DNA of 64,000 nt from Liolophura sinensis (taxonomy: Eukaryota > Mollusca > Polyplacophora > Chitonida > Chitonidae), in assembly GCF_032854445.1 (NCBI RefSeq), contig NC_088300.1, positions 65,136,984 through 65,200,983 on the forward strand, written 5' to 3'. Shown here one piece after another: positions 30,801 to 33,800 of the stretch. Within the stretch, counting starts at the first letter, position 1. Every line of letters starts with the position of its first letter. The notes beneath the pieces are model-generated. The model was not told where the DNA came from and ran no database searches. It saw only the letters and a list, made by a program, of their open reading frames with translations. The translations under genes were made by a program, and so were the position numbers.

Positions 30801-33800
30801 CAGCTTGAGCTGGATTCGAGGCAATGGCCAAGGGTTGTGATAAGGACATTTTAACAGCGTTAGCCTGCTAGGGTGCCCAAAAATTTGAAGGTTACAATGT
30901 AAGAGACTTGTAATGCATAGGAATTCTGCCAAGATTGGTAATGTATAGTATGTCTTGAGGTTCTGCATGGAACTTTGCCTCTTGATAAGAACATTTTTTG
31001 GAACACAGGAAAATCTACTAATGATTAATTTGTATGCTCTGCAATACATCCCGTCTAAATTTAAATTTACATGTTGCTTGCATGAACAAGCACATACATC
31101 ATACTAATTCCGTCACACAAAAAAGAGCAGCAAACAGACACTTAACTGTATGATTTCACCAAACACATGTATTCATTTATTCTGAGCAGAAGACTGACGG
31201 GCATTCAGTGATTTAATACACCCTGATCACCTTGGACAGATAGTCCTGCTGCTGAAGAGGCCATTTAATCTCACGCAAATTAACCAGATGAAAAAGCGAT
31301 GCTATTAACGTTACAGACACACAAGATTAAATCTCTTCCATCCATGAGCCCAAAAAATTGAATCTAAATTTCTAGTTATTCTGGTTACACCTTGGCAATG
31401 GTCCAAAGACAAGATTCCTATAACGGCCTAATCAATCCAACCAAAACAAATGCATTGCTTACAGCACACAGGCTGATTGCTAAAAACTTATCTTTTTACA
31501 TATTATAACCATTAAGTTGAATTCCTACCTTTTGGCAGCCCTAAATGTTGTTTAAACCTATTTTTCCCCTTCAAGCATATGTTTTATGTATTGGTATAAA
31601 ATTGTCTTGTACTTAAAACATTTAGTATGTTTGATGTACTTCAGGAATTACTTCAAGTACATCCATTGGGCACCAATAGTGTAATCTGCTACCCTTAGAT
31701 AGGAATGAGTACATGACAATTGTGTAGAATCATTCTGATTGCGGGTTCACAAAGTGTAACCTGCAACCTCTGGACGAGCACATATAGGATATCACTGCTG
31801 TGTAGAATTGTTCTGACTGAGGGTTCACAAAGTGTAATCCAGAACCCTTGGATGAGAACACGTGTAATCTGCAATCCTTGGACGAGAACATATAAGATAT
31901 CACTGCTGTGTAGAATCATTCTGAATGTGGTTCACAAAGTGTAATCTACAACCCTTGGACAAGAACAATTTTGCATACGACTGCTGTGTAGAATCATTCT
32001 AATTGCGGGTTCACACTCACAGCCGGGTGATCTAGTCCCAATGTTTTCTCCCTAATGCCTAAAGCATCATTCAGTAGATTGGCTGCCTCCTTGTATTTGC
32101 CTTGGTCTCTGAAAATGAAGCATTGCACAAATCTACGTAGATACAAGTTAACAACAAGGTAATTAAACAGCAATTCATCAGACTCCACAACACAGGGACA
32201 GAATTTATGCCTGCTATAAACTGGTAATACTGATACAAAAGAGTTCAAGGTTCTCTTCCATGTTTTTCTTTCTTTACACATTTAAATCATGAAACCCTTG
32301 AAAGGTATTTAGAGCAGCTAGATTTAACGCAGCAGGCAATCAGGCATTTCAAGGACAAAATTGTTTTTTCCAAAGGTGCCTGATCAGTTGAACCTCTATC
32401 CCTGCCCTGCAGTCTGATGTACTACTTCTACAATCAGAGCAGTGTAACTAGAACCAACAGCTGGTGACCTGTTGTAATATGTACATCAACCTGACTTCAG
32501 CCTGTATCCCAGTTCTATAGTCTTAAGTTGTTTTCTTCCACAGTGGTAGTACTGTGTTACATATATCTAGCTTTAAAGCCAACTTTATTTAGAAAACTAA
32601 CTATTCTGTTTGAACTGACCAACAACTTAATCCATTGCAAAATTTATTATTATATGTAAAGAAAAAACTGTCTTGTCTGAGACAAATTGGACAAGTTTAA
32701 AATTGATTCCTAAATTGAATGGTAAGTTGTAAGTACTGCTATCAGCAGCACAAAATTGATATACTTATCACGCTACTCAAGTGTCGATGATATCACGTGC
32801 AGAGGGTATGTTCACAGGATCACTGTTAATACTGGAAATCTTAATGCACTATCACATGCTAGTTAGGTATGATTGGACGAAGGTACATGTATGTCTACAA
32901 AACTACTGTTAACACTGGAAATCTTAATAACCAGTAATATTACAAGTTACTCAGGTAAGACTTGTTGGAAGAGAAAATTTGGATCCACTAAAAATTTTGC
33001 TGTCAGTCATGTATGATGTGAAGGTATGCCTACAAAAATATCATCACATCACGGGTCAATCATGCTTGGGTCTGTCAGCAATCTGCAGATGGTCGTGAGT
33101 TTCCCCCAGGATGTTCTCGGCTTCCTCTCACCATAATGCCAGCTGCCGTCGTATAAGTTAAATATTCTTGAGTACAGCGAAAAACACCAATGAAATAAAT
33201 AAATAAATCAATCATGTGTGATGTAAATGAAGACTACAAGTATTGATGCACTATCAGTCAGACATGATGTGAAGAAGGTGTGTTTACAAAAGTACTATTA
33301 ACACTACCAATGTTGATGCCCTATCACAGGCCAGTTAGGCATGATGTACAACACTAGCAAGTTCACCAAACTGGCCCCTGCCACACTGCCCATGTCTCAC
33401 AGGTGCAGATGCACTAATGAGTCACTAGTGACACTCACTGCTGGGTTGTCTGGGCCCAGTGTTTTCTGTCTTATGGACAGTGCGTCATGCAGAAGGTTGC
33501 CTGCCTCTCTGTACTTCCCCTGATCTCTGTCAGTGTGAAGGTGCAGCAGCGCATGCAGATACAGCACATGCAACACAGCACAAAGCAGAAGAGAGAAAAA
33601 AAAAAGAAAAGAACAGAAAACCAAATCAACATCAAAAACACCAAAACAAAAACATAGTGATCAAATAAAATGCTATGCTACAACAGAACAAACACACGAG
33701 TAACCTGGGTCAATTTCAAACCTTTTCTTTCTCCTTTAATAAATAAAACTGCAATGATTTTGAAATGCAGAAATCTAAGACAACTTTTCTTTCTTGAAGT

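Follow-up and report, generated by a model that had tools for sequence, protein, structure and literature searches.

Vertebrates diversify the light chains of kinesin-1 by four separate genes and by C-terminal regions that vary through splicing, whereas the locus described here carries candidate alternative exons inside the TPR domain of a single gene. The light chains predicted from this locus resemble KLC1-KLC4 in that their TPR-domain versions differ at few positions. JIP1 is bound differently by KLC1 and KLC2 (PMC6214655). Brain-specific splicing of mouse Klc1 is mentioned in the excerpted text of PMC4801060, which does not state the region involved.

Tandem exons used in a mutually exclusive manner are a familiar kind of alternative splicing. 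As described in two catalogues of human examples (PMC5740500, PMC9741552), they are adjacent, homologous, equal in length and phase, and distinguished mostly by conservative changes, and the duplicated exons described here are like them in these respects. Exclusion enforced by the reading frame, which we predict for one of the present pairs, also matches these catalogues. In the part of PMC5740500 that concerns exon lengths, 377 clusters (60%) of human mutually exclusive exons contain lengths indivisible by three. The presence of two sets in one gene has a precedent too: unc-32 of Caenorhabditis elegans has two separate sets of alternative exons, but it belongs to another protein family and its exon choice is known to be neuron-specific. 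For a duplicated exon of Drosophila cacophony, the authors of PMC9741552 propose that both isoforms still bind the partner and that the swap may moderate the effect; cacophony encodes a calcium channel, unlike the motor adaptor considered here.

KLC is an unexpected gene for such exons. Among the matches listed from the open literature, as far as their accessible text extends, nothing was found on duplicated TPR exons in KLC; subscription papers (for example on the early cloning of squid and sea urchin KLC), supplements and genome annotations lie outside this scope. The word "kinesin" is absent from the main text, as distinct from the supplements, of PMC5740500, PMC9741552 and PMC9013439. A pattern scan for related loci gave 18 loci from 163 matches, all bacterial by title and unused here, and no locus from 30 matches in viral contigs.

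Results

The window, meaning the whole stretch of 64,000 nucleotides of Liolophura sinensis DNA that was analysed (contig NC_088300.1), contains a minus-strand gene that, judged by its sequence, is a kinesin light chain (KLC), the cargo-adaptor subunit of kinesin-1. Across the TPR region, assembled with copy 2 of both duplicated exon pairs, 259 of 292 aligned columns are identical to the KLC1 chain 3nf1 (E 4e-170). Between the coiled coil and the C-terminal region, both included, 14 exons were placed by GT-AG sites and an open frame, and four of the 14 make up the duplicated pairs. All KLC features given below are on the minus strand, and codon numbers start at the ATG of the coiled-coil exon, which is not the gene's own start.

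Two parts of the gene were located by tblastn with vertebrate segments, and their coordinates mark the extent of the match and not exon ends: an N-terminal heptad-repeat coding segment (39392-39580, E 1.4e-21), from the region that would bind the heavy chain, and a C-terminal helix segment (20832-20918, E 2.4e-12). In the gene model, the coiled-coil exon (36821-37051) is followed by a linker exon (36292-36382) with the sequence LGFPDDDDD, which resembles the LFP-acidic motif and stands at the expected place; it departs from the vertebrate description at the triplet's first letter and at the next residue. A single-copy exon with TPR1 and helix A of TPR2 comes next (35534-35762), and its donor would be common to the two copies of an 88-nt exon, copy 1 at 33439-33526, upstream in the gene, and copy 2 at 32021-32108, downstream. 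Both copies were placed by splice sites, phase and homology to each other. They are followed by a single-copy exon with most of TPR3 (30251-30352), the acceptor of which would serve either copy. The same arrangement recurs around TPR4: the donor (gtctgt) of a single-copy exon with TPR4 helix A (29805-29888) would serve both copies of a 90-nt exon that encodes helix B of TPR4 and the beginning of helix A of TPR5 (copy 1, 29378-29467; copy 2, 28828-28917), and the acceptor of the single-copy TPR5 exon (27878-27977) would likewise serve both. The model continues with one exon after TPR5 (27521-27570), one before TPR6 (27091-27161), the TPR6 exon (26400-26508) and the exon of the C-terminal region (24083-24280). 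This last exon can also be read past its donor to a stop (23930-24082), a possible alternative KLC C-terminus ending in SGLSKTLGY.

The 88-nt exons lie at exactly the coordinates given in the preliminary description, and they have identical phase, as it stated. Both are entered in phase 2, with an arginine codon split as AG/A at the junction, and both end at a codon boundary. The acceptors read ...ctgacag/AGATCA and ...ttttcag/AGACCA, and both exons share the donor gtgagtgt. The earlier argument that use of both copies or of neither would shift the frame proved correct in silico, in that inclusion of both leads to a stop at codon 226 and omission of both to a stop at codon 188. Spliced to the other exons, either copy alone keeps the KLC frame open. 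The same description took each exon for a TPR helix pair, which is wrong: the 88-nt exon encodes TPR2 helix B and the following loop, and helix A is constitutive, being encoded in the single-copy exon at 35534-35762. The helix-pair reading was rejected for the duplicated exons on a map to KLC1 numbering, with the offset checked on N343, in which they cover residues 267-295 and 358-387, in each case a second helix and a loop. The names of the helices in this map follow PMC6214655 and the standard TPR layout. The three amino acid changes named earlier (Asn to His, Glu to Gln and His to Asn) are present, copy 1 having His279, Gln286 and Asn293, but the list was incomplete, as seven residues differ between the copies.

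Comparison of the 88-nt copies points to long-standing protein constraint. They share 22 of 29 residues, and they match each other with an E value of 4.5e-12, whereas neither copy matches another exon of the gene better than at 7.8e-5. Among 87 coding nucleotides 26 differ, 16 of them at third positions, and pS is 0.84 on 21 sites (saturated) compared to a pN of 0.12 on 66 sites. Random placement of 26 changes on copy 2, repeated 20,000 times, never left 22 of the 29 residues intact and introduced a stop in 54% of the trials. In the flanks (600 bases per side) no alignment extends past the first donor bases, save for one match of 11 bases. Because 22 of 29 residues are common although synonymous sites are saturated, the pair looks, from these sequences, like an old duplication in which both copies were retained as protein code. 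Copy 2 is closer to vertebrate KLC1 (25 of 29 residues identical) than copy 1 is (20 of 29). With KLC1 as the reference, five changes can be attributed to one copy, and every one of them belongs to copy 1 (p 0.06); at two further positions copy 1, copy 2 and KLC1 all differ. This skew leaves room for relaxed constraint on copy 1 or for a new role.

The 90-nt pair is another tandem duplication in the same gene, absent from the preliminary description. Its copies are equal in length and phase, 23 of their 30 residues are identical, and pN is 0.14 compared to a pS of 0.75 on about 20 synonymous sites. A scan of the 14 exons against the whole window found no tandem twin of any single-copy exon; the next best match between exons was TPR3 with TPR1 (55% identical, E 2.8e-8). 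The frame stays open in silico with both 90-nt copies or with neither, and thus gives no basis for exclusion. Single use of these copies is suggested instead by the predicted fold, since with both included two helix-B segments would come in succession and disturb the regular A/B order of the repeats.

The splice sites of all four duplicated copies appear usable. All are GT-AG, and their donors, scored with generic frequencies, fall at percentiles 97.4-98.2 of the GT sites between 21901 and 37100, close to the scores of several exons that the gene has only once. Among the 14 donors, the one with the lowest score is gtctgt at 29799-29804 (percentile 0.946), which belongs to the exon before the 90-nt pair and possibly relates to regulated choice. 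The copies are separated by introns of 1330 nt (88-nt pair) and 460 nt (90-nt pair), too far apart for a steric block, and the uniform GT-AG sites with ordinary donors give no sign of a U2/U12 conflict. For the 88-nt pair, only transcripts with exactly one copy would code for a full KLC; the wrong products would presumably be removed by nonsense-mediated decay, and such destruction would suffice for exclusion.

A regulatory role is not apparent for RNA pairing around copy 1 of the 88-nt pair: the pairing partners are dispersed mobile elements and, with flanks, their pairing does not exceed that of shuffled sequences. The best pairing between introns of this pair, which joins 34801-34846 to 33145-33190, scored 56 compared to 44 for the best of 15 shuffles. 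The 46-nt duplex alone has a predicted energy of -35.2 kcal/mol, and with flanks the energy of -58.3 falls inside the distribution of 200 shuffles (mean -44.3, sd 8.7, lowest -67.9). A second pairing of the same introns scored 43, just below the shuffle maximum, and none of the remaining two intron combinations of the 88-nt pair or the three of the 90-nt pair (30 shuffles each for the latter) rose above shuffles. The elements themselves are inverted dispersed repeats with short tails (34770-35170 and 33060-33230) that enclose copy 1 and could favour its skipping or the formation of circular RNA. Relatives occur elsewhere in the window, for example at 38531-38880, 58284-58515 and 16282-16414, and the dispersed repeats of the window end in runs of CACT, which gives them a molluscan look.

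The residues that vary between copies were compared with the peptide contacts described for KLC1. In the text of PMC6214655 on KLC1 with JIP1 and TorsinA, most of the hold on the peptide comes from the first helices of TPR2-6, and the second helices make fewer, secondary contacts. The comparison draws on the 16 residues that this section names as contacts, as distinct from the full map in Figure 3A of the same paper. Fifteen of them were compared, and none coincides with a residue that varies in either pair; N469, the sixteenth, is not part of either duplicated exon. A variable position might still make one of the secondary contacts. N386 in the TPR4 exon and R266, the codon of which is split at the TPR2 exon junction, are unchanged between copies.

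The five helical changes of TPR2 (272, 275, 279, 283 and 286) form one stripe (P 0.001), and the stripe of TPR4 is weaker and not significant (P 0.08); loop changes at 291 and 293 in TPR2 and at 375 in TPR4 were excluded from these tests. On average the helical changes point 134 (TPR2) and 176 (TPR4) degrees away from the TPR packing face. Four shared repeat positions vary in both pairs, somewhat more than expected (P 0.054).

Discussion

We consider it likely that the copies of both duplicated exons serve as alternatives, a reading for which genomic sequence is the source throughout. In the 88-nt pair, mutually exclusive use is well supported by the equal length and phase of the copies, their usable sites, the frame-dependent stops and the constraint on the protein, and this part of the earlier interpretation stands on exon anatomy. 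The 90-nt copies are probably also used singly, and four KLC isoforms would then be possible. We speculate that use of the copies is specific to tissues or cells.

Several other explanations bear on whether both copies are used, and in what combination. If copy 2 of the 88-nt pair were the working exon, added copy 1 could act as a poison exon that shuts the gene off by an early stop, as a form of self-regulation. The stop at codon 226 that follows from inclusion of both copies would allow this, as would the greater distance of copy 1 from KLC1, but a poison exon requires no conserved protein sequence, and copy 1 has no stop of its own and differs from copy 2 mostly silently (pN 0.12, pS 0.84); we regard this explanation as highly improbable. 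We find it just as improbable that, in either pair, one copy has fallen out of splicing and is decaying. The confinement of all five assignable TPR2 changes to copy 1 (p 0.06), next to two positions at which all three sequences differ, is what such decay might leave, but frame and splice sites are intact and synonymous change is saturated with few replacements, a pattern that, in one genome, is also compatible with a recent loss. Exclusion in the 90-nt pair is a separate matter, since its frame is kept in both combinations, and some mRNAs might carry both copies or neither. The predicted proteins argue against this, as inclusion of both would give helix B, the start of helix A and helix B again and omission of both would delete a helix, and we think it quite unlikely that the pair is not exclusive.

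With alternative use as the preferred reading, the question becomes what a swap would change. The preliminary description proposed that the TPR2 swap could change cargo choice through the peptide groove, and that part of its interpretation is weakened. A direct effect on the binding of W-acidic or Y-acidic peptides is made plausible by three points in PMC6214655: in KLC2-SKIP the tryptophan of the W-acidic peptide lies between TPR2 and TPR3, second helices do make some secondary contacts, and the change S328N in KLC2 is dominant in restoring KLC1-like affinity for JIP1, which indicates that small changes can matter. However, no variable position was found among the compared Y-acidic contacts named in that text, N386 and the split R266 are constant, and the helical changes of TPR2 form a single stripe that faces away from the packing face. 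We consider a cargo-choice switch unlikely. A swap may leave the groove nearly unchanged and instead alter the second helices of TPR2 and TPR4 on their outer face, and it may tune bending of the solenoid, stability, docking in the folded motor or binding of partners outside the groove.

We give roughly even odds to the reading in which the swap affects outer surface, stability, bending or docking to a greater degree than the peptide groove. The hinge of the peptide-induced closure of KLC1 lies in TPR3 and TPR4, at residues 323-329, 348-350 and 353-358 in the portion of PMC6214655 that describes it, and the TPR4 exon starts at the edge of this hinge, as the exon covers 358-387 and the hinge reaches 353-358. 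In the folded motor, the TPR domains rest on the coiled coils and motor domains of the heavy chain (PMC13371920). The contact by which the TPR domain docks on the heavy chain is reported for TPR1, not for TPR2 or TPR4 (PMC13078783), so that the duplicated exons would not be directly in that contact; this counts against the outer-surface reading, as does the lack of significance of the TPR4 stripe (P 0.08).

A fuller proposal, which we put forward only tentatively and consider somewhat doubtful, is that this chiton makes a two-by-two set of light chains, possibly from a single KLC gene, in which the second helices of TPR2 and TPR4 are swapped independently. The groove would be common to all four, the outer face and bending would change, and splicing would set how readily the binding of cargo frees the motor from autoinhibition, and not which cargo is bound. 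Two sets of alternative TPR helices, if true, would be another route to the diversification of kinesin-1 light chains, one that acts inside the cargo-binding domain. Such natural paired variants, if true, could also help to tell the contribution of groove binding to kinesin-1 activation from those of docking and hinge motion.

Other features of the window

Outside the KLC gene, open frames on the plus strand at 1858-3015 and 4275-5171 encode, respectively, a macro domain and a RING finger with the beginning of a Deltex C-terminal domain after it, which suggests a DTX3L/PARP-like gene or gene pair. A 63-nt unit, open in several frames, is repeated in tandem about 19 times at 2663-3874, in an array that begins inside the macro-domain frame. 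Another array, at 9250-9897, has about 22 copies of a 30-nt unit and encodes EQSPDAGASV-like repeats in one frame. A tRNA-Ala (AGC) gene lies at 11801-11875 on the plus strand.
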